Part shown: positions 32,999 through 42,227 of the stretch, one piece after another
Layout of the letters: each line of letters begins with the position of its first letter
Position numbering within the stretch: the stretch's first letter is position 1
Source of the DNA: Sulfitobacter indolifex
GTDB taxonomy: Bacteria > Pseudomonadota > Alphaproteobacteria > Rhodobacterales > Rhodobacteraceae
Direction of reading: 5' to 3'
DNA length: 64,000 nucleotides
Assembly: GCF_022788655.1 (NCBI RefSeq)
Contig: NZ_CP084951.1
Coordinates: 1,922,001 to 1,986,000, forward strand
Notes under the pieces: generated by a model
Told to the model about the DNA's origin: nothing
The model's database searches: none
Seen by the model: the letters and a program-made list of their open reading frames with translations, nothing else
Position numbers and translations under genes: made by a program

Positions 32999-33013
32999 GA
33001 ACATATATAGAAC
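32999..33013 (+). promoter_or_regulatory. LexA (SOS) box of the radical SAM-udgX operon
   Basis: An exact GAAC-N7-GAAC direct repeat, the LexA site of alphaproteobacteria. It ends two bases before the ATG at 33016. There is no Shine-Dalgarno sequence between promoter and start, so the transcript is probably leaderless or nearly so, and LexA would block both promoter escape and the start region. Confidence 0.88.
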
Positions 33014-33015
33014 AC

Positions 33016-34251
33016 ATGGCAAAACAGACACTCGATCAAAAACTGGCGATTCTCAGCGACGCGGCGAAATACGACGCCTCCTGCGCCTCCTCCGGCTCGA
33101 CCAAACGCGACTCGCGTGATGGCAAAGGGCTGGGCTCAAACGAAGGCAGCGGCATCTGCCACGCATACGCCCCCGACGGGCGGTGCATCAGTCTGCTTAA
33201 AATCCTGATGACCAATTTCTGCATCTACGATTGCAGCTATTGCATTAACCGGGTGTCCTCTAACGTGGATCGCGCGCGGTTCAGCGTGGATGAGGTGGTG
33301 AAGCTCACCATCGAATTCTACCGCCGCAATTACATCGAAGGGCTGTTCCTGTCCTCGGGCGTGATCCGCTCACCCGATGCGACCATGTCCGACATGGTGC
33401 AGATCGCCCGCAAGCTCCGGCACGAAGAGAACTTTCGCGGCTATATCCACCTCAAGACCATCCCCGACGCCTCGCCCGAGTTGATCGAAGAAGCCGGGCT
33501 GCTGGCCGACCGTCTGTCGATCAACGTCGAACTGCCGACCGACAGCGCGGTCGAGCAATATGCGCCAGAAAAGAAGCCCGAGCAAATCCGCCGGGCCATG
33601 GCGAATGTGCGGATGGTCAAGGACGCCAGCAAAGATAAATCCTTCACCGGCAAGCGCCCGCCCCGCTTTGCCCCTGCGGGCCAATCCACCCAGATGATCA
33701 TCGGCGCGGATGGCTCCAACGATGCCACGGTGCTGGGCCAGTCGACGCGGCTTTATTCCAGTTACAAGCTGAAACGCGTCTATTACTCCGCCTTTTCGCC
33801 CATCCCCGACAGTTCTGCCAAACTGCCGCTGATCCGCCCGCCTTTGCAGCGCGAACATCGGCTCTATCAGGCCGACTGGCTGCTGCGGTTTTACGACTTT
33901 CAGTTGGACGAGATCACCTCCGTCACCCGCGACGGCAATCTTGACCTTGAGATCGACCCCAAGCTCGCTTGGGCGCTGGTCCACCGCGAACACTTCCCCC
34001 TCAATGTGAACCGCGCCAGCCGCGAGATGCTGCTGCGGGTGCCGGGCTTTGGCGTCAAGACGGTCAACCGCATCCTCGCCACACGGCGGCACCGTAGCTT
34101 GCGCTACGAAGACCTGACCCGCATGGGTGCGTCGATGAAAAAGGCCCGTGCGTTCATCACCGCCGGAGGCTGGACACCGGGCGGGCTGACCGACAGCGCC
34201 AACCTGCGCGCGCGCTTTGCCCCGCCGCCCGAACAGTTGACCCTGTTCTGA
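33016..34251 (+). CDS. putative DNA modification/repair radical SAM protein
   Basis: A 411-residue radical SAM enzyme with the cluster motif C69-x3-C73-x2-C76 (CIYDCSYC). It matches a family always found beside a UDG-like partner, recognisable by LSDAAKYDASCASSG near the N-terminus and a helix-hairpin-helix region near 330-385 (LLRVPGFGVKTVNRIL). Its chemistry is unknown; the HhH suggests that it acts on DNA. The stop overlaps the udgX ATG region (TGATG). A LexA box lies immediately upstream, so it is an SOS gene. Confidence 0.87.
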   Translation: MAKQTLDQKLAILSDAAKYDASCASSGSTKRDSRDGKGLGSNEGSGICHAYAPDGRCISLLKILMTNFCIYDCSYCINRVSSNVDRARFSVDEVVKLTIEFYRRNYIEGLFLSSGVIRSPDATMSDMVQIARKLRHEENFRGYIHLKTIPDASPELIEEAGLLADRLSINVELPTDSAVEQYAPEKKPEQIRRAMANVRMVKDASKDKSFTGKRPPRFAPAGQSTQMIIGADGSNDATVLGQSTRLYSSYKLKRVYYSAFSPIPDSSAKLPLIRPPLQREHRLYQADWLLRFYDFQLDEITSVTRDGNLDLEIDPKLAWALVHREHFPLNVNRASREMLLRVPGFGVKTVNRILATRRHRSLRYEDLTRMGASMKKARAFITAGGWTPGGLTDSANLRARFAPPPEQLTLF

Positions 34252-35681
34252 TGCACCGCGTCAGCTTGCCCCCCATCGGCACCGCCAAAGCGTGGCGCGA
34301 GGCCGCGCGCGGGTTTCTTGCGGCTGGCGTGCCGCCCGAGCAAATCCTCTGGGGGGATCACGCCGCGGCTCCTGATCTGTTCGGCGGGGAAAGCGCTCCC
34401 CCCTCAGGCGGGAAGGTCTCGGTCCCGCGCAGCTTTATCTCAATGGCCGAGACCGCCGTCTGGCATAGCGACCCTGAGCGTTTTGCCCGGCTCTATGCTT
34501 TTCTGTGGCGGGTGAAAGACGCGCCGCATTTGATGTCGGACCGAGGCGATGCCGACCTCGCCGTGCTGCGGGGGATGGAGAAAAACGTCCGCCGCTGCCA
34601 GCACAAGATGAAAGCCTTTGTCCGCTTCCGCGAGATCGGCGTGCCTGACGCCCCGCGCCGCAGCTTTGCCGCGTGGTTCGAGCCCACGCATCACACCGTA
34701 GAGCCGACGGCGGATTTCTTCGTGCGGCGGTTTTCTGACATGGACTGGCGCATCCTCACTCCCGATGTCTCGGCGATTTTCGAGAACGGCAAACTCACTT
34801 TCCAAGAAGGCCACAGCAAGCCCGACCTGCCCGAAGACGCGGGCGAGCAGCTTTGGATCACCTACTTCCAGAACATCTTTAACCCCGCCCGCCTGATGGT
34901 GAAGGCGATGCAGTCCGAGATGCCCAAGAAATACTGGAAAAACATGCCCGAGGCCGCCTTCATTCCCCAGATGATCGCCGAAGCCCCCGCCCGCGCCCGC
35001 GCGATGGCCGAGGCCGCGCCGACCCTGCCCCCCGTCCGCATGGATCGGGTGCAAGCACAGCTCAGCGCCTTTGATTCCGCATGGGACGGCCCGATGGAAG
35101 AACTGCCCGCCGCGATCCGCGCTTGCACCCGCTGCCCACTGCATTGCCACGCCACCCAAGCCGTGCCGGGCGAAGGGCCGACGCGTGCGGATTTGATGGT
35201 GGTGGGCGAACAGCCCGGCGATCAGGAGGATTTGGCAGGCCGTCCCTTCGTCGGCCCTGCCGGGCAGATGTTCGACCGCGTGGCATCAGAGGCCGGGCTG
35301 GACCGCGAGGCAGCATACGTGACCAACGCCGTCAAACACTTCAAATTCACCGCCCGTGGCAAGCGCCGCATCCACCAGCGCCCCGAGACCTCCGAGATTG
35401 ATCAATGCCGTTGGTGGGTGAACGCCGAGGTGGCGCAGGTGCAGCCTAAACTGATCCTCGCCATGGGCGCCACGGCGGCTCAGAGCCTGACGGGTTCCGG
35501 TGCGGGCATCCTCAAGCGGCGCGGCACCATTGAGGCGGGGCCGGAAGGCATCCCGGTGCTGATCACCCTGCACCCATCCTACCTGCTTCGAGTACCGGAC
35601 CCAGCTCTGCGCGAAGAGGCCGAGGCACAGTTTCGCTCCGACCTCGCCATGGCCGCGCGTATGATGGCGGAGGCGGCTTAA
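34251..35681 (+). CDS. udgX: UdgX-type uracil-DNA crosslinking protein with N-terminal partner domain
   Basis: A 476-residue fusion. Residues 1 to about 255 form the domain that accompanies the radical SAM protein (DUF4130-like). Residues about 280-476 form UdgX: motif A GEQPGDQED at 319-327, iron-sulfur cysteines C292, C295, C299 and C386, the UdgX-specific loop KRRIH at 371-375, and HPSYLLR at 441-447. In known UdgX the His of KRRIH (here H375) attacks the sugar after uracil release and stays covalently joined to DNA. It is coupled to the radical SAM gene and controlled by the LexA box at 32999. Its 3' end shares 4 bases with the convergent SRAP gene. Confidence 0.9.
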   Translation: MHRVSLPPIGTAKAWREAARGFLAAGVPPEQILWGDHAAAPDLFGGESAPPSGGKVSVPRSFISMAETAVWHSDPERFARLYAFLWRVKDAPHLMSDRGDADLAVLRGMEKNVRRCQHKMKAFVRFREIGVPDAPRRSFAAWFEPTHHTVEPTADFFVRRFSDMDWRILTPDVSAIFENGKLTFQEGHSKPDLPEDAGEQLWITYFQNIFNPARLMVKAMQSEMPKKYWKNMPEAAFIPQMIAEAPARARAMAEAAPTLPPVRMDRVQAQLSAFDSAWDGPMEELPAAIRACTRCPLHCHATQAVPGEGPTRADLMVVGEQPGDQEDLAGRPFVGPAGQMFDRVASEAGLDREAAYVTNAVKHFKFTARGKRRIHQRPETSEIDQCRWWVNAEVAQVQPKLILAMGATAAQSLTGSGAGILKRRGTIEAGPEGIPVLITLHPSYLLRVPDPALREEAEAQFRSDLAMAARMMAEAA

Positions 35682-36316
35682 TGCTCGGGGTCGATGACCT
35701 GTAATGTCCCATCCGGCAGGGGCTGTTGCAGGGCGGGCAAATCGGCGGTTTCGGCTGTAAGCCACGCCTGCACGGCGTCAGGCGAGGTCAGGATCACCGG
35801 CATCGCCTTGGGATGCACCGCGCCGACCTCGGCATTGGCCTCGGTGGTCAGAAAACCATAGAGGTTGTCGGTCGTCTCGCCGTCCTTGAGTTTGCGCACA
35901 GAGGTCCACTGCGTCCAAATCCCGGCGAAAAACGCCAGCGGGCGGTCCTCTTCCAGCGCGAACCAGACCGGGCGCGAAGGCTGGCCGGGGCGGTTATGCG
36001 GCTCTGAAAAACTGGTGAAGGGCACGACGCAGCGATGCTCTGCCCCCAGCCAGCGCCGCCAGTGGGGCGAGCCGATGTTGCGCACATTGGTCACGCCGCG
36101 ATCGGTCTTTTTGCCCTTGAGCGCAAAGGCAGGCGACGGCAGCCCCCACCGCATCATGCTGAGCACCGGACCTTCCGCGCCGCCGCGCACCACGGGAGCG
36201 CTGTAGTCGGGGTAGATGCCGGGCATCGGCGGCAGATTGCCCGCTTGATCGTCGATCCCGTCGAACCAGCCGCGGATCGCGTCTTGGCCCTTGGTCAGGG
36301 AATAGAGATTGCACAT
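35678..36316 (-). CDS. SOS response-associated peptidase (SRAP/YedK, HMCES type)
   Basis: A 212-residue SRAP protein. After Met removal Cys2 (MCNLYS) is the residue that forms a stable thiazolidine crosslink with abasic sites in single-stranded DNA. Other conserved points are RWGLPSP, the VPFTSFSEP glutamate segment and the HPKAMPVIL histidine. It shields abasic sites from error-prone processing. It is tail-to-tail with udgX (TTAA shared) and divergent from imuA. The nearest LexA box (36426-36440) is about 110 bases upstream of its start, so its own SOS control is possible but not certain. Confidence 0.92.
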   Translation of the reverse strand: MCNLYSLTKGQDAIRGWFDGIDDQAGNLPPMPGIYPDYSAPVVRGGAEGPVLSMMRWGLPSPAFALKGKKTDRGVTNVRNIGSPHWRRWLGAEHRCVVPFTSFSEPHNRPGQPSRPVWFALEEDRPLAFFAGIWTQWTSVRKLKDGETTDNLYGFLTTEANAEVGAVHPKAMPVILTSPDAVQAWLTAETADLPALQQPLPDGTLQVIDPEH

Positions 36317-36393
36317 GGATCAGGCCCCTTTGCCGGCGTGGTTGTGCTCAGTAGATGCGATCTTATGCGTCCCCGGCAAGGGCCACGCGATCT

Positions 36394-36423
36394 TTGACAG
36401 GAGCGCAGTTCGTGATTTATAAA
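36394..36423 (+). promoter_or_regulatory. sigma-70 promoter of imuA-imuB-dnaE2
   Basis: TTGACA at 36394-36399 and TATAAA at 36418-36423 are separated by 18 bases. Initiation would fall near 36430, inside the LexA box that follows, so LexA binding would block it directly. Confidence 0.75.
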
Positions 36424-36425
36424 TA

Positions 36426-36440
36426 GAACAAAATGTGAAC
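36426..36440 (+). promoter_or_regulatory. LexA (SOS) box of the imuA-imuB-dnaE2 operon
   Basis: An exact GAAC-N7-GAAC repeat overlapping the predicted transcription start and ending two bases before the ATG at 36443. The geometry is the same as at 32999-33013. SOS control of this cassette is the rule in alphaproteobacteria. Confidence 0.9.
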
Positions 36441-36442
36441 AT

Positions 36443-37189
36443 ATGGATTCGTGCATGACAACAGATTCTTCATATGGGCAGGTCCTTACCCTGCCACGGC
36501 GCAAGCCGTCGACGCCCCCAGAGCCGGGGGTGCTGGCCAGTCATGCGCCGCTGACGGATGTCTTTCCGACGGGTTTTGCCGCGCCCTCGGCCACCGGTTT
36601 TGTGCTCTCGCTGCTGCCCCAAAGCGCGGGGCCGGTGCTTTGGGTGCAGGACTTCTTGTCGCGGCGCGAGAATGGGGCGCCGTATACGCCCAGCCTGCGC
36701 GGTTTCGGGCTAGAGCAGCCGGTGCTGCTGGTCACGGTCAGCCATCCCCGCGACGTGCTTTGGACGATGGAGGAAGGGGCGGCCTGCGCGGGCCTCTCGG
36801 CCGTGATCGGCGAGGTGCATGGCGGGCCGGAGGTGCTGGATTTCACCGCCACCAAACGGCTGTCGCTCAGGGCCGAGGCGTCGGGCGTGCCGCTGTACCT
36901 CATTCGCAGCGGCGATCCGGGCGGCTTAAGTGCGGCGCGGATGCGTTGGCGCATCTCTGCCCTGCCCTCGCAAGCCCATCCGCAGGATGCCCAAGCCCCG
37001 GGTGCCGCACGGTGGGATCTCGACCTGTTTCGCGCCCGTGGGCATCCGCCGGGGCGTTGGGTGGCCAGCCATGACCCCGACAAACGCCAAAGCCCCCGCG
37101 CCGCAGATCGTCTCCGTCTGGTTCCCTATGCTGACGATGGAGCGGTGGCGCCGGGTGATCGCCCAATACCGCAGCGTGCCGGGGAATGA
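36443..37189 (+). CDS. imuA: mutasome accessory protein ImuA
   Basis: A 248-residue ImuA/SulA-like protein, first gene of the imuA-imuB-dnaE2 translesion cassette. It has a RecA-like layout (TGFVLSLLPQSAGPVLWVQD; GLEQPVLLVTVSHPRDVLW) without a clear Walker A. The ATG at 36443 comes two bases after the LexA box and lacks a ribosome site; ATG 36455 is an alternative. Its frame runs 119 bases into imuB, a longer overlap than the few bases usual elsewhere in this window. The last 35 residues may be dispensable. Confidence 0.87.
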   Translation: MDSCMTTDSSYGQVLTLPRRKPSTPPEPGVLASHAPLTDVFPTGFAAPSATGFVLSLLPQSAGPVLWVQDFLSRRENGAPYTPSLRGFGLEQPVLLVTVSHPRDVLWTMEEGAACAGLSAVIGEVHGGPEVLDFTATKRLSLRAEASGVPLYLIRSGDPGGLSAARMRWRISALPSQAHPQDAQAPGAARWDLDLFRARGHPPGRWVASHDPDKRQSPRAADRLRLVPYADDGAVAPGDRPIPQRAGE

Positions 37190-38624
37190 CGTGCCGGTCG
37201 TCCTGTCTCGCGACGGCAGCCATGGGCCGGTGGTGCATGGGCTGAGCGCGGCGGCTCAGGCGCGCGGGATCGATGCCGGCGCACGGGTGGTCGATGTTCA
37301 GGCCATTCACCCCGATCTGCATGTGGAACCTGCGGATCTGGAGGGCGACGAGGCGCTGATCCAACGGCTGGTGCATTGGGCGCGGCGCTGGTGCCCCTGG
37401 ACGGCGCGGGACGTGGATCATGGGCTGCTGCTGGACGTCACCGGCTGCACCCATCTGTTTGGTGGTGAGGCGGCGATGCTGCGCGACATCCGGGCGCGCT
37501 TTGCATTGCAGGGACTGACGGCACGGGTCGCCATGGCCCCCACCCCCGGTGCCGCGCAGGCGCTGGCACGCTTCGGCTCCGGCGCGCAGATTTGCACCGC
37601 TAGGGATGTGGCCACCGCCCTCGCCCCCCTGCCCGTCGTCGCCCTGCGGCTCGATGCCCAGACCACGCGGCTCTTGGACCGTCTGGGCCTCAAGACCATC
37701 GGCGCGCTGAGCGATCTGCCCCGCGCCGCGCTCATGCGCCGCTTCGCCAGTCTCAAGCCTGCACGCAACCCGCTGATCCTGCTCGACAAGGCCTTGGGTA
37801 AAGCATCGGACCCGCTGAACGCCCCGCCGGATCACCGCCACTTCATGACCCGCAGCCGCCTGCCCGAGCCGGTGATCGACCCCGCCCCGCATCTGCCCGC
37901 GCTGGTGGATGACCTCTGCACCCTTCTGGCCCGCGCCGAACTGGGCGCACGGCGGCTGCGTCTGACGATCTACCGCATCGACGGCGATTGGCGCGCCCTT
38001 GGGGTGGCCACGGCGCGGGCCAGCCGCGACCCATCCCACCTGCGCAGGCTGTTCGACGGCAAGCTGGAGAACATCGACAGCGGCTTTGGTTTCGATCTGC
38101 TGACGCTGGAGGCGTTGGCCTGCGAGCCGCTGTCGCTGATCCAAGACCACCTCGAAGGCAAACGCGACCCGTCGGCGGATGTGGCAGGGCTGCTCGACCG
38201 TCTTGCGGCCAAACTGGGGGCGGACAAGGTCAGCTGGCCCGATTGGCAAGAGAGCCACAGGCCCGAGCGGGTGGAGCGCCGTGTCGATGCGCTGCAAGGC
38301 ACGCCCGCCGCAGCACCCACCCTGCTGCGCGACCGCCCCCTGCGCCTGCTGACCCCGCCCGAGGAAGTGCGCGTGATCTATGCCGTGCCCGAAGGCCCGC
38401 CCTCGCAATTCAACTGGCGGCGCGTGACCTATAAAACCATGCGCCACGCGGGGCCGGAGCGCATCGCGCCCGAATGGTGGCGCGACCGCCCCGGCACCCG
38501 TCTGCGCGATTATTATAAAGTGGAGGTCGAAGGCGGCCAGCGCTTCTGGCTCTACCGTGAAGGGGTAATCCACGATGGCCGCGGGGCCGAGCCGCGCTGG
38601 TTTCTGCATGGGATGTTCGCCTGA
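37071..38624 (+). CDS. imuB: ImuB, inactive Y-family DNA polymerase homologue
   Basis: A 517-residue protein related to DinB. The start is set at ATG 37071 because the family-wide opening IVSVWFPMLTMERW follows at once. This segment replaces the catalytic DMDAFF motif of active Y-family polymerases, as expected for ImuB, which acts as a scaffold joining the clamp, ImuA and DnaE2. Other conserved parts are LLLDVTGCTHLFGGE and the little-finger region. The stop overlaps the dnaE2 start (TGATG). Confidence 0.92.
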   Translation: MTPTNAKAPAPQIVSVWFPMLTMERWRRVIAQYRSVPGNDVPVVLSRDGSHGPVVHGLSAAAQARGIDAGARVVDVQAIHPDLHVEPADLEGDEALIQRLVHWARRWCPWTARDVDHGLLLDVTGCTHLFGGEAAMLRDIRARFALQGLTARVAMAPTPGAAQALARFGSGAQICTARDVATALAPLPVVALRLDAQTTRLLDRLGLKTIGALSDLPRAALMRRFASLKPARNPLILLDKALGKASDPLNAPPDHRHFMTRSRLPEPVIDPAPHLPALVDDLCTLLARAELGARRLRLTIYRIDGDWRALGVATARASRDPSHLRRLFDGKLENIDSGFGFDLLTLEALACEPLSLIQDHLEGKRDPSADVAGLLDRLAAKLGADKVSWPDWQESHRPERVERRVDALQGTPAAAPTLLRDRPLRLLTPPEEVRVIYAVPEGPPSQFNWRRVTYKTMRHAGPERIAPEWWRDRPGTRLRDYYKVEVEGGQRFWLYREGVIHDGRGAEPRWFLHGMFA

Positions 38625-41600
38625 TGCCCGAGCAGGAGGGACATAAGCGCCGGACGCTGGGCGAGGACGGGTTCAGCGCACCGCCCCGTGCGGAATATGT
38701 GGAGTTCGGACTGGCCAGTTGCTTTTCCTTCCTCCGCGCCGCCTCGGACGCCGTCGATCTGGTCGAGACGGCGCATTACCACGGCTATGACAGCCTCGGC
38801 ATCGCGGATCACAACACGCTGGCGGGCGTGGTGCGGCTGCATGTGGAGGCCGAAAAGGCGCATATTCGCCCGCTGATCGGGGCACGGCTGGTGCTGCTCT
38901 GTGGCACCGAACTGCTGGCCTATCCGCAAGACCGCGCCGCCTATGCGCGGCTCTCGACGCTGCTGTCGGCGGGCAAGATGCAATCGGTGGACGGCGAATG
39001 GCAGCAAAAGGGCGAGACCCATCTGACGCTGGAGATGCTGGCCCAACACGCCGAAGGGCTGCACCTGATCGTCATGCCGCCCGAGAACCTTGATGTCTTT
39101 GCCGCTGGCCTGCCGCGCCTGGTCAAGGCGCTGCCGGGGATGCGGCATGTGGGCGCGAGTTTCCTTTACCGGGGCGATGACCGGGCGCGGATCAATCGGC
39201 TGGATGCGCTGGCCCGTGCGCAGGGTCTGACGATCTTGGCGACCAACGACGTGCTCTATCACGCCCGCCACCGGCGGCCCTTGCAGGACGTGATGGTAGC
39301 GATCCGCGAAGGGGTCATCGTGCCGAAAGCGGGCTATCTGCTGGAGGCCAATGCCGAGCGGCACCTGAAATCCCCCGAAGCGATGTGCCGCCTCTTTGCC
39401 GACTGGCCACATGCCATCGCCGCCACACGCAGACTGGCGGACCGGATCACCTTCAAACTCACCGATCTGGCCTATGAATACCCGCATGAGATCGTCCCCG
39501 AAGGCCGCACACCGATGGAGGAACTGTCGCGCCTCACATGGGAGGGCGCTGCGCGGCGTTATCCTGACGGCGTGCCCGAGGCGGTGGAAAAGACCATCCA
39601 CAAGGAATTCGCCCTGATCGAAAGCAAGAAGATCGCCCGCTATTTCCTCACCATCTACGACATCGTGCGCTTTGCCCGGCAGGACGCGCAGCCGCCGATC
39701 CTTTGCCAGGGGCGCGGCTCGGCGGCCAACTCCGCCGTCTGTTTCTGCCTCGGCATCACCTCGGTTGACCCCGCCGTACACAACCTGCTGTTCGAGCGGT
39801 TCCTGTCGGAAGAACGCGACGAGCCGCCCGACATCGACGTGGATTTCGAGCACGAGCGGCGCGAGGAAGTGATCCAGTACATGTACGGCAAATATGGCCG
39901 TCACCGCGCCGGGCTTTGCGCCACCGTGATCCACTACCGCCCACGCTCGGCCATTCGCGAGGTCGGCAAGGCGATGGGGCTGTCGGAAGACGTCACCTCG
40001 AAACTCGCGGGCACGATCTGGGGCAGCTTTGAAGGCCAGATGGACGACGAGCGCACCCGCGAGGCGGGGTTGGACCTGTCGGACCCCTACCTGCGCATGG
40101 TGCTGACGCTGGCCAAACAGATGATCGGCATGCCGCGGCACCTGAGCCAGCACGTCGGCGGCTTTATCCTCACCGAACGCCCCCTGACCGAGATCGTCCC
40201 CATCGGCAACGGCGCCATGCCCGAGCGCAGTTTTATCGAATGGGACAAAGACGACATCGACGCGCTGCAAATCTTCAAGGTCGATATTCTGGCCCTTGGC
40301 ATGCTCACCTGTATCGCCAAATGCTTTGATCTGATCGAGGCGCATTACGACCGCCCGCTGGAACTGGCCACCGTCCCGGTGGAGGACCATGAGGACGACG
40401 CCACTGGGCGGCCCACCTACGATATGCTCTGCAGGGGCGACAGTCTGGGGGTGTTTCAGGTCGAAAGCCGTGCGCAGATGGCGATGCTGCCGAAACTGCG
40501 GCCCCGCGTCTTCTATGATCTGGTGATCGAGGTCGCCATCGTCCGCCCCGGCCCCATTCAGGGCGACATGGTGCACCCCTATCTGCGTCGCCGTCAGGGC
40601 ATGGAAAGCGTAGTCTACCCCGCCCCCGGCCCGGCCTATCCGCAGGACGAATTGTTCAGCATCCTCAGCCGGACGCTGGGCGTGCCGATCTTTCAAGAAC
40701 AGGCGATGAAGATCTCCATCGACGCGGCACAGTTTTCACCGACTGAGGCCAACGAGCTGCGCAAGGCCATGGCCACCTTCCGCTCGCGCGGGACGATTGA
40801 AAAGCTGCAGGACAAGATGGTGGGCCGGATGACCAAGCGCGGCTATGACCCGGTCTTCGCGCAGCGTTGTTTTGATCAGATCAAAGGCTTTGGAGAATAC
40901 GGTTTCCCCGAAAGCCATGCCGCGAGCTTTGCCAAGCTGGTCTATGTCTCAAGCTGGATGAAATGCCACTACCCGGCGGCCTTTGCCTGCGCGCTGCTGA
41001 ACTCGCAGCCGATGGGGTTTTACGCGCCGGCGCAGATTGTGCGCGATGCGCGCGAGCATCAGGTTGAGGTGCGCGGCGTGGATGTGAACCTCTCGGATTG
41101 GAACTGCACGTTGGAGCCTTGTGGCGAGGGCTTTGCCCTGCGGCTGGGGCTGCGCATGGTGGACGGGTTGCAGGAGAAAGCCGCCGCGCGGATCATGGAC
41201 CGGCGCGAGACGCCTTATACGGATGTCGAAGACCTCAAGACCCGGGCCGGCCTCGACGCCAAGGCGATCCGCCAATTGGCCGCCGCCGACACGATGCGCA
41301 GCATGGGGATCGACCGGCGCCAAGCGCTTTGGCAAAGCCAAGGGCTGCGCGACGCGCCTGCTCTGCCGATCTTTGACCATGCCGAGGCGGCGTCTCAGGG
41401 GCCGGAGCCTGAGGTGACGCTCCCGGTGATGCCGAAAGCCGAACAGGTGGTCGCCGATTACCAGACGCTGCGGCTCTCACTTAAAGCGCATCCGATGTCC
41501 TTTTACCGCAGCAGCCTTGCCGCGCAGGGGTTTTCCTCGGCCCGCGATTTGGGGCGGATGGGGCATGGACGGCGGGTCAAGCTCGCCGGGCTGGTGCTGG

Positions 41601-41953
41601 TGCGCCAAAAACCCGGCAGCGCCAAGGGCGTCTGTTTCATCACGCTGGAGGATGAATGCGGGGTCGCGAACCTTGTGATCTGGCCCAATATGTTCAAGCT
41701 CTACCGTCCCACGATCATGGCGGCGCGTCTGCTGGTCGTGGAGGGCCGCGTGCAGACCGATGGGCGGGTGATCCATGTGGTGGCCGATCGGTTAGAAGAC
41801 CGTTCTGACCGGCTGGCGGCGCTGTCGGATGCGCCGATGCCCGGCATCACCACGCGGGGCGATCATCCGACCCATCCGCTGCCCGGTCAGGTGGCGATGC
41901 ATTCCCATCCCCGCGACGCGCGCGTGATCCCCAAGTCGCGTGATTTTCATTAA
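38624..41953 (+). CDS. dnaE2: error-prone DNA polymerase DnaE2 (ImuC)
   Basis: A 1109-residue C-family polymerase. The N-terminal PHP domain (FGLASCFSFLRAASDAVDLV) is present; the polymerase active site PDIDVDF has D403, D405 and D407, and CQGRGSAANSAVCF lies upstream. The C-terminal OB-fold (about 985-1080) is also seen. It lacks the extended tail of replicative DnaE1 and is the translesion subunit of the SOS mutasome with ImuA and ImuB. Its start is coupled to imuB. Confidence 0.95.
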   Translation: MPEQEGHKRRTLGEDGFSAPPRAEYVEFGLASCFSFLRAASDAVDLVETAHYHGYDSLGIADHNTLAGVVRLHVEAEKAHIRPLIGARLVLLCGTELLAYPQDRAAYARLSTLLSAGKMQSVDGEWQQKGETHLTLEMLAQHAEGLHLIVMPPENLDVFAAGLPRLVKALPGMRHVGASFLYRGDDRARINRLDALARAQGLTILATNDVLYHARHRRPLQDVMVAIREGVIVPKAGYLLEANAERHLKSPEAMCRLFADWPHAIAATRRLADRITFKLTDLAYEYPHEIVPEGRTPMEELSRLTWEGAARRYPDGVPEAVEKTIHKEFALIESKKIARYFLTIYDIVRFARQDAQPPILCQGRGSAANSAVCFCLGITSVDPAVHNLLFERFLSEERDEPPDIDVDFEHERREEVIQYMYGKYGRHRAGLCATVIHYRPRSAIREVGKAMGLSEDVTSKLAGTIWGSFEGQMDDERTREAGLDLSDPYLRMVLTLAKQMIGMPRHLSQHVGGFILTERPLTEIVPIGNGAMPERSFIEWDKDDIDALQIFKVDILALGMLTCIAKCFDLIEAHYDRPLELATVPVEDHEDDATGRPTYDMLCRGDSLGVFQVESRAQMAMLPKLRPRVFYDLVIEVAIVRPGPIQGDMVHPYLRRRQGMESVVYPAPGPAYPQDELFSILSRTLGVPIFQEQAMKISIDAAQFSPTEANELRKAMATFRSRGTIEKLQDKMVGRMTKRGYDPVFAQRCFDQIKGFGEYGFPESHAASFAKLVYVSSWMKCHYPAAFACALLNSQPMGFYAPAQIVRDAREHQVEVRGVDVNLSDWNCTLEPCGEGFALRLGLRMVDGLQEKAAARIMDRRETPYTDVEDLKTRAGLDAKAIRQLAAADTMRSMGIDRRQALWQSQGLRDAPALPIFDHAEAASQGPEPEVTLPVMPKAEQVVADYQTLRLSLKAHPMSFYRSSLAAQGFSSARDLGRMGHGRRVKLAGLVLVRQKPGSAKGVCFITLEDECGVANLVIWPNMFKLYRPTIMAARLLVVEGRVQTDGRVIHVVADRLEDRSDRLAALSDAPMPGITTRGDHPTHPLPGQVAMHSHPRDARVIPKSRDFH

Positions 41954-42070
41954 CAAATCTTCATGCTCTGGATGAAGTAAATCGCGCAAGAAGTTGAAAT
42001 TCACACGAAACACATAAAGTAACCGTCACCAGTTGACCCCGCGACCCCGCCTCGCTAGCCTGCCCGCAAT

Positions 42071-42148
42071 CCGTTGGGGTGCCGCAAGGCTGAGAGGTGA
42101 AAACCGACCCATCGAACCTGATCCGGGTCGTACCGGCGTAGGGAACGG
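42071..42148 (+). promoter_or_regulatory. TPP riboswitch (THI element)
   Basis: All conserved blocks are present in order: P1 arm CCGTT with GGGGTGCC, the GGCTGAGA box at 42088-42095, ACCGACCC, the GAACCTGATCCGGGTC box at 42114-42129, ACCGGCGTAGGGAA, and the closing AACGG at 42144-42148. It precedes a ten-gene thiamine operon and would repress it when thiamine diphosphate is bound. Confidence 0.97.
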
Positions 42149-42227
42149 AACCAAGCATCGGCCCCATGCGGCCCGTCGTTTATCCCGTATCCACATGCCC
42201 TTGGCCCATCTGACGAATGGGGGCCAT

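Follow-up and report, generated by a model that had tools for sequence, protein, structure and literature searches.

A 2006 survey is said to have dealt with the imu cassette. SOS control of a uracil-DNA glycosylase (UDG)/radical SAM (rSAM) operon, linkage of SRAP to Imu proteins and linkage of DUF4130 to rSAM and UDG proteins are already in print. The available portion of PMC8565304 describes a two-gene, LexA-controlled COG1573-COG4277 operon with a uracil-DNA glycosylase and cites earlier reports from Verrucomicrobia and Caulobacter, Alphaproteobacteria being included. According to the accessible part of PMC3765255, SRAP adjoins imuA-imuB-dnaE2, and DUF4130 is tied to SplB-like rSAM proteins and UDG within the same context network as SRAP and ImuB-C. 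The hallmarks of cross-linking UdgX, as given in the available text of PMC10359453, are a KRRIH R-loop, motif A (GEQPG) and motif B (HPS); the same text regards the physiological function of UdgX as largely unknown. No report of an rSAM-DUF4130-UdgX cassette inside a mutasome operon was found in the open-licence PMC literature.

Gene content of the locus

The locus under study lies in a Sulfitobacter-like window of 64,000 nucleotides (the whole stretch of DNA that was analysed) and has the following features:

32999..33013, + strand: LexA box GAACATATATAGAAC, with its end 2 bp short of the rSAM start codon
33016..34251, + strand: radical SAM protein, TIGR03916 (rSAM_link_UDG), by profile match and Cys pattern
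34251..35681, + strand: DUF4130-UdgX fusion, TIGR03915 plus TIGR03914, by profile matches and motifs
35678..36316, - strand: SRAP protein, PF02586, by profile match and catalytic residues
36426..36440, + strand: LexA box GAACAAAATGTGAAC, upstream of both imuA (2 bp to its start) and the divergent SRAP gene (110 bp to its start)
36443..37189, + strand: imuA, named from its position and conserved gene context, the family score being below cut-off
about 37071..38624, + strand: imuB, Y-family-like, PF00817 (start codon uncertain; open frame from 36930)
38624..41953, + strand: dnaE2, error-prone DNA polymerase, NF004225 (1384 bits, cut-off 939)

Open reading frames, profile matches and a box scan agreed with a preliminary description of this DNA on the six genes, their order, the two exact LexA boxes and all their coordinates, as well as on the R-loop motif KRRIH (starting at residue 371, with its His at 375), Cys2 of SRAP and the tail-to-tail overlap of the UdgX and SRAP frames by 4 bases (35678-35681). 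Two features had been missed: the rSAM and udgX frames overlap by 1 base, and the 'UdgX' of that description has a DUF4130 domain fused to its N-terminus (DUF4130 at residues 10-235, TIGR03915; UdgX at residues 238-467, TIGR03914). TIGR03916, TIGR03915 and TIGR03914 all score above cut-off, in that order.

The weakest call is ImuA (19.8 bits against a cut-off of 150 for NF033429, and no Pfam match); ImuB is above cut-off for the general Y-family model PF00817 only, so both names depend partly on gene order. With dnaE2 the two genes form a single SOS-boxed operon, as in an ImuABC mutasome. PADLOC assigned no defence family to rSAM, UdgX or SRAP.

The rSAM protein scores 585.8 bits against TIGR03916 (cut-off 343.5), a family that NCBIfam names only as 'putative DNA modification/repair'. 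Its CxxxCxxC motif (C69, C73, C76) is invariant across 47 aligned proteins, and three more cysteines (23, 48 and 57) are invariant as well. The C-terminus has a helix-hairpin-helix (HhH)-like stretch, for which the PDB sequence matches to RuvA and ComEA-type HhH domains are weak.

In the UdgX domain GEQPG starts at residue 319, KRRIH occupies 371-375 (His375) and HPS stands at 441; by these motifs (R-loop His, motif A and motif B) the protein is predicted to be a cross-linking UDG. Of 168 UDG domains, 166 have the R-loop His (153 recognised by pattern and a further 13 by eye). SRAP carries C2, N77, E105 (within SFSEP) and H168, the catalytic residue set of SRAP/HMCES proteins, N77 presumably being the catalytic Asn; the closest solved chain is 2aeg. 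The catalytic Glu and His are named in the available part of PMC9436759.

LexA boxes and predicted SOS control

GAACN7GAAC occurs four times in the window (expectation, 1.67), and four matches were reached in 10 of 100 shuffles; judged by composition alone, the two boxes of the locus are within chance. The remaining two matches lie inside long ORFs. The locus boxes are convincing because of their position: both end 2 bp ahead of a start codon (rSAM and imuA), and the rSAM box is kept in relatives. Such spacing predicts messages with little or no leader. Of 173 usable alphaproteobacterial loci (L117 and L135 left out), many of them closely related and hence not independent, 169 have an exact box in the 120 bp preceding rSAM, against 31 of 7299 control windows. 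Such a GAACN7GAAC box, near the start and retained among relatives, is what an alpha-type LexA regulon has, and it supports the prediction that the rSAM-udgX cassette is under SOS control.

In 29 loci of other classes the E. coli-type box CTGTN8ACAG was found at 19, versus 0.67% of control windows, and the looser CTGN10CAG at 24, versus 7.8% of control windows. Common SOS regulation might on its own promote clustering of the cassette with imuABC.

Neighbourhoods of the cassette

The recurring unit is the rSAM-DUF4130(-UdgX) cassette, rather than UdgX-SRAP. The rSAM gene immediately precedes the DUF4130-UdgX fusion in all 26 family loci. Of the 40 genus loci fetched, 39 have it upstream of a DUF4130(-UdgX) gene and the remaining one has an rSAM remnant only; two of the 39 (L114 and L116) show no UDG part. 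Among the 199 loci of the tree set, 27 have no detected UDG domain beside DUF4130 (two of these, L175 and L254, end at a contig edge); therefore, UdgX is not essential to the rSAM-DUF4130 core pair.

Adjacency of UdgX and SRAP was seen in a single clade, made up of the window and eight relatives (9 of 58 genus genomes; in one of the nine, G176, SRAP is split between two matches). Neither the 31 other genus loci nor the 26 family loci have it, with the exception of G107, where a distant SRAP paralogue (32% identity) lies 4.7 kb from udgX. Over the 199 loci, SRAP with a bit score >60 was found beside rSAM in L078-L084 and L094 only; L168 has an SRAP match with 28% identity about 7 kb beyond udgX. 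No SRAP was detectable in the fetched flanks of the mutasome-linked cassettes read from Sphingomonadales and family f159. UdgX-SRAP as a conserved pair was rejected.

Linkage of the cassette to imuABC recurs, in three arrangements: (i) convergent across SRAP, in the window and its eight genus relatives, where each unit keeps its own LexA box; (ii) inside the operon, as imuA-imuB-rSAM-udgX-dnaE2, complete in 31 of 80 named Sphingomonadales loci (chosen by similarity to a linked locus) and partial in 5 more, spanning several genera and with gaps of 14-156 bp between the udgX and dnaE2 matches; (iii) divergent, in family f159, where coordinates show it in seven of the eight genomes with rSAM, three of the seven read as DNA.

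Family f13 adds to arrangement (ii): imuB lies just upstream of rSAM on the same strand in at least 28 of 99 rSAM genomes; this count leaves out ImuB matches that, by eye, are on a contig other than that of rSAM, far off (G584) or in genomes where no rSAM passes the cut-off, as well as G605, where an rSAM fragment under the cut-off stands beside imuB. In family f160 the cassette and imuABC are on different contigs in all seven genomes. Cassettes without adjoining imuABC in the stretch read make up 151 of the 199 loci of the tree set and all 26 family relatives.

On the tree of 199 rSAM proteins (L054, L116 and L134 left out) the convergent, in-operon and divergent types require 1, 8 and 1 changes, 10 in total; thus, none of the three types need turn directly into another. 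Gain and loss are indistinguishable in such counts.

Possible joint function with the mutasome

The presence of the cassette beside the same polymerase genes in other lineages, in different arrangements, suggests joint working, and we infer a joint function of the cassette and imuABC. As the most likely one, to which we would give about an even chance, the rSAM-DUF4130 pair would process damaged bases in the gapped, single-stranded DNA that also serves ImuABC as template. The locus comprises two LexA-boxed units, a putative lesion-processing cassette (rSAM plus DUF4130-UdgX) and the ImuA-ImuB-DnaE2 mutasome, with SRAP as a third, mobile element between both in this clade only. One could speculate that DUF4130 docks the pair and that rSAM, with its DNA-binding-like HhH tail, performs a radical reaction on the lesion, a chemistry that is likewise speculative, as is the order of steps in the putative pathway. 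The fused UdgX domain may trap uracil (e.g. arising from deaminated cytosine in the lesion) covalently and thereby cap the site, which would stay uncleaved during mutasome action; SRAP would be a parallel AP-site cap, and its partnership is not required. A more specific role for DUF4130 seems doubtful to us: that of a degenerate RecJ/Cdc45-like ssDNA platform, by which a radical enzyme for repair and a protein that traps uracil covalently would reach the mutasome-filled gap. Comparison of DUF4130 with RecJ by hhalign gave probabilities of 0.3% and 0.1%, with a RecJ profile of three sequences only.

The strongest competitor, in our estimate appreciably less probable than joint processing, is that the cassette and imuABC share no step in their biochemistry and are separate SOS units, brought together through LexA control and mobility. 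Most cassettes are indeed away from imuABC, the units of the window clade retain separate LexA boxes, and plasmid records of rSAM (158) and of SRAP relatives (499) indicate that both move. However, the imuB-cassette-dnaE2 order in several Sphingomonadales genera and the divergent pair of f159 are tighter than mere proximity; by rough arithmetic, random placement within 10 kb of an imu operon in a 4-Mb genome has a chance of about 0.6%.

It is rather improbable that rSAM acts like spore photoproduct lyase (SPL), directly reversing UV pyrimidine lesions, with UdgX removing uracil from deaminated cytosine therein. The HhH-like tail suits a DNA substrate, DUF4130-associated rSAM proteins are named SplB-like in the accessible part of PMC3765255, and the available text of PMC3323433 predicts LexA-controlled splB in alpha and beta Proteobacteria, although that splB may not be TIGR03916. 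On the other hand, SplB (COG1533) is listed apart from the COG1573-COG4277 operon in the available portion of PMC8565304. Structure searches, for which the model had a pLDDT of only 68, gave the generic radical SAM enzymes LipA, PFL-AE and HydE; among the PDB sequence and structure matches listed there was no SPL entry, the model being of moderate quality.

Still less probable is the scheme put forward in the preliminary description, UdgX and then SRAP acting on successive stages of a lesion (uracil, abasic site) with the mutasome bypassing the cross-link: its parts look intact (KRRIH/GEQPG; C2/N77/E105/H168) and their arrangement is kept in nine genus genomes (SRAP split in one), but SRAP adjoins the cassette in one clade only, apart from the distant G107 paralogue, the linked cassettes read from Sphingomonadales and f159 have no detectable SRAP in the fetched flanks, no UDG domain was detected in 27 of 199 loci, UdgX would cap its own product (PMC10359453, available text) and so leave no free AP site for SRAP, and mutagenic translesion synthesis is inhibited by cross-links of HMCES/SRAP, which SRAP can itself reverse (PMC9436759, available part); this last point counts against bypass. 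In that description rSAM, too, might resolve the adduct. What stays of the 'SOS island' proposed there is the predicted SOS control of rSAM-udgX and the cassette-imuABC link recurring in other lineages.

As to joint processing of damage by the cassette and the mutasome, the presence of the cassette inside the Sphingomonadales mutasome operon offers a setting in which UdgX and the TIGR03916 rSAM can be tested, namely mutagenesis that depends on DnaE2 and follows SOS induction. Should the link prove functional, there would be bacteria in which the processing of damage and error-prone copying are coupled within a single operon.

Among described systems, solved UdgX structures (6ajo, which we take to be Mycobacterium smegmatis UdgX, and others) have GEQPG, KRRIH and HPS in common with the window protein (E 6.1e-49); unlike the M. 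smegmatis protein, the latter carries a fused DUF4130 domain and has rSAM as its partner. COG4277 is presumably the TIGR03916 rSAM family. The COG1573-COG4277 operon is a LexA-controlled UDG operon, as is predicted here, whereas physical integration with imuABC is not described in the available portion of PMC8565304; similarly, the accessible part of PMC3765255, on SRAP/ImuB-C neighbourhoods, does not describe the in-operon order, the divergent arrangement or the cross-linking class of UdgX. The three models of the NCBIfam set TIGR03916/TIGR03915/TIGR03914 (rSAM_link_UDG, SAM_7_link_chp, UDG_fam_dom) are all matched in that order by the locus; their names and descriptions, unlike the context in the window, make no mention of a mutasome. 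Gene order and LexA box are also those of the ImuA-ImuB-DnaE2 mutasome, to which the rSAM-DUF4130-UdgX cassette is attached in the window and in two further lineages.

Parts of the island and their distribution

All gene families of the preliminary description could be identified, and the gene content was present as claimed:

window 33016-34248: radical SAM protein (rSAM), TIGR03916, 585.8 bits
within 32999-41953: DUF4130-UdgX fusion, TIGR03915 and TIGR03914
within 32999-41953, opposite strand to the other island genes: SRAP
within 32999-41953: imuA-imuB-dnaE2 (the mutasome, imuABC)

The UdgX part of the fusion, which matches solved UdgX structures at 6.1e-49, carries GEQPG at 319, HPS at 441 and the cross-linking histidine at residue 375, in KRRIH; SRAP (closest solved chain, 2aeg) has C2, N77, E105 and H168. 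Both H375 and Cys2 were thus found where they had been placed, and the 4-base overlap between UdgX and SRAP was confirmed; rSAM and udgX overlap by 1 base. A TPP riboswitch (RF00059, 68.3 bits) lies at 42065-42161 (+), between dnaE2 and thiD.

The rSAM was matched in 41 of 58 Sulfitobacter genomes, near full length in 39 of them (including the window's). Forty genus loci besides the window's were fetched, with flanks of varying length (e.g. 10.3 kb in L088, 5.2 kb in L114). Eight had the complete island; 31 had rSAM, DUF4130(-UdgX) and a LexA box, with SRAP and imuABC absent from the fetched flanks, some of them short, and the UDG part not seen in two (L114, L116); one had an rSAM remnant only. 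In a family sample of 149 genomes, full-length DUF4130-UdgX occurred in 27, and rSAM was immediately upstream in 26/26 relatives; imuABC and SRAP were not seen in the stretches fetched for these 26 (E 1e-8), the exceptions being a distant SRAP 4.7 kb from udgX in genome G107 and imuB 14.6 kb off in genome G088. The adjacency is not unique to the window, being found in 9/58 genus genomes; within the fetched stretches it did not extend to the other genus loci or, these exceptions aside, to the family relatives.

All nine island genomes share a TRAP-transporter/thiD setting (no thiD was seen in L078), found at no other fetched genus locus. Their ImuB proteins are 88-100% identical, so the genus island would most simply represent one event in one clade. 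The island is real, built of ordinary parts and confined to one clade.

Some genes were split between hits: rSAM and dnaE2 in L094 (G185), SRAP in L080 (G176), rSAM in L116 (G196) and L054 (G147), which suggests frameshifts or assembly errors. Plasmid-borne rSAM was found in 158 records, 58 of them from Phaeobacter and 7 from Sulfitobacter.

The core unit and its LexA boxes

The UDG domain was not detected beside DUF4130 in 27 of 199 loci (two of which, L175 and L254, end at a contig edge), and DUF4130 was not detected in 5 (L139 has a divergent downstream ORF; L192 ends early); therefore the core unit is rSAM plus DUF4130, with UdgX a frequent addition. The cross-linking histidine is kept in 166 of 168 UDG domains (153 by pattern, 13 of the remaining 15 by eye); the two exceptions are L201, with Asn, and L162, where the motif is missing. 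Six cysteines are invariant among 47 aligned rSAM proteins; as three of them (residues 23, 48 and 57) lie outside CxxxCxxC, the protein may have a further site for a metal or cluster. The predicted DUF4130 structure (pLDDT 86) weakly resembles RecJ/Cdc45-type proteins, without sequence support.

The window contains four copies of GAACN7GAAC versus 1.67 expected; two are outside the island, within long ORFs. The two in the island each stop exactly 2 bp short of a start codon (33013-33016; 36440-36443). Of 173 usable alphaproteobacterial loci, many of them close relatives, 169 have an exact box in the 120 bp before rSAM, versus 31/7299 control windows from the same loci (175 were fetched; L117 and L135, without the rSAM N-terminus, were excluded; starts were set by aligning each rSAM with that of the window). 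Among the four misses, L036 and L240 have a box with one altered base; in L054 and L119 no box was seen in this range. The commonest spacing is again 2 bp, which predicts leaderless or near-leaderless messages. Among 29 loci from other classes of the phylum, 19 have CTGTN8ACAG and 24 have CTGN10CAG (control rates, 0.67% and 7.8%). L037 (9624-10304, -; genome G117) holds a DUF4130 gene on its own, with a LexA box at the start of the gene; no rSAM or UDG was found in the stretch around it.

Joining of the cassette to the mutasome

What generalises, and was less expected, is that the rSAM-DUF4130-UdgX cassette has repeatedly become joined to imuABC; our searches of open-licence literature found no earlier report of this. 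In type I, that of the window clade, cassette and mutasome are convergent with SRAP in between. In type II the cassette is inside the operon: in at least 28 of 99 genomes with rSAM over the cut-off in family f13 (Sphingomonadales, by organism names of loci), imuB precedes rSAM in the same orientation, at 77-6305 bp. In a set of 80 Sphingomonadales loci with organism names, Erythrobacter, Porphyrobacter, Tsuneonella, Qipengyuania, Novosphingobium and Croceicoccus included, imuA-imuB-rSAM-DUF4130-UDG-dnaE2 was complete in 31 and partial in 5, and imu genes were not seen in 44. The linked fraction is biased upward because the loci were the best matches to the rSAM of L120, itself within such an operon. 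Four of the partial loci run to the contig end; L208 has dnaE2 without imuA or imuB. In type III (L165, L169, L173) the two are divergent with a LexA box in between; by coordinates, 7/8 rSAM genomes of family f159, from two genera, have this order, and 0/7 genomes of family f160, where cassette and imu genes are on separate contigs.

On a FastTree of rSAM proteins (199 of 202 loci, the window not included; L054, L116 and L134 were too short) the linked state needs 10 changes, distributed 1/8/1 among types I/II/III, gain not being distinguishable from loss. The differing gene orders argue for separate gains.

Additional ORFs, assigned by eye, were seen at Sphingomonadales loci: a small PilZ-like one in L176 (8765-9103, +), where it separates imuB from the LexA box of rSAM, with a similar ORF in L120, and a hemerythrin-like one between rSAM and DUF4130-UdgX in two Sphingomonas loci (L224, 11261-11737; L239, 11267-11773). 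The gap between rSAM and DUF4130-UdgX hits exceeds 300 bp in 20 of the 44 unlinked loci.

Proposed lesion processing and known SOS systems

The favoured reading, held with about even confidence, is that the cassette would be an SOS lesion-processing arm acting on the same templates that the mutasome copies. Pure clustering of the cassette and imuABC appears a less probable explanation. The order proposed earlier, with UdgX and SRAP acting on uracil and then the abasic site before mutasome bypass, is disfavoured by the view published in PMC9436759, in which cross-links made by SRAP hold back translesion synthesis and can be reversed.

SRAP is a story separate from the cassette. At 7 of 13 fetched SRAP loci (L068-L073, L075), its close relatives immediately precede a distinct imuB-dnaE2 set, each with its own LexA box; no imu genes were found at the other six, where the L067 stretch is only 4.6 kb. 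SRAP relatives occur in 499 plasmid records, 252 rated conjugative. Since the window SRAP starts 110 bp from the box shared with imuA, its predicted SOS control is less certain than that of imuA. SRAP-Imu linkage has been in print since 2013 (PMC3765255).

For the cassette, PMC8565304 describes SOS control of the COG1573-COG4277 UDG operon in Bacteroidetes and cites the same for Verrucomicrobia and Alphaproteobacteria; our LexA-box counts extend this published control rather than discover it.
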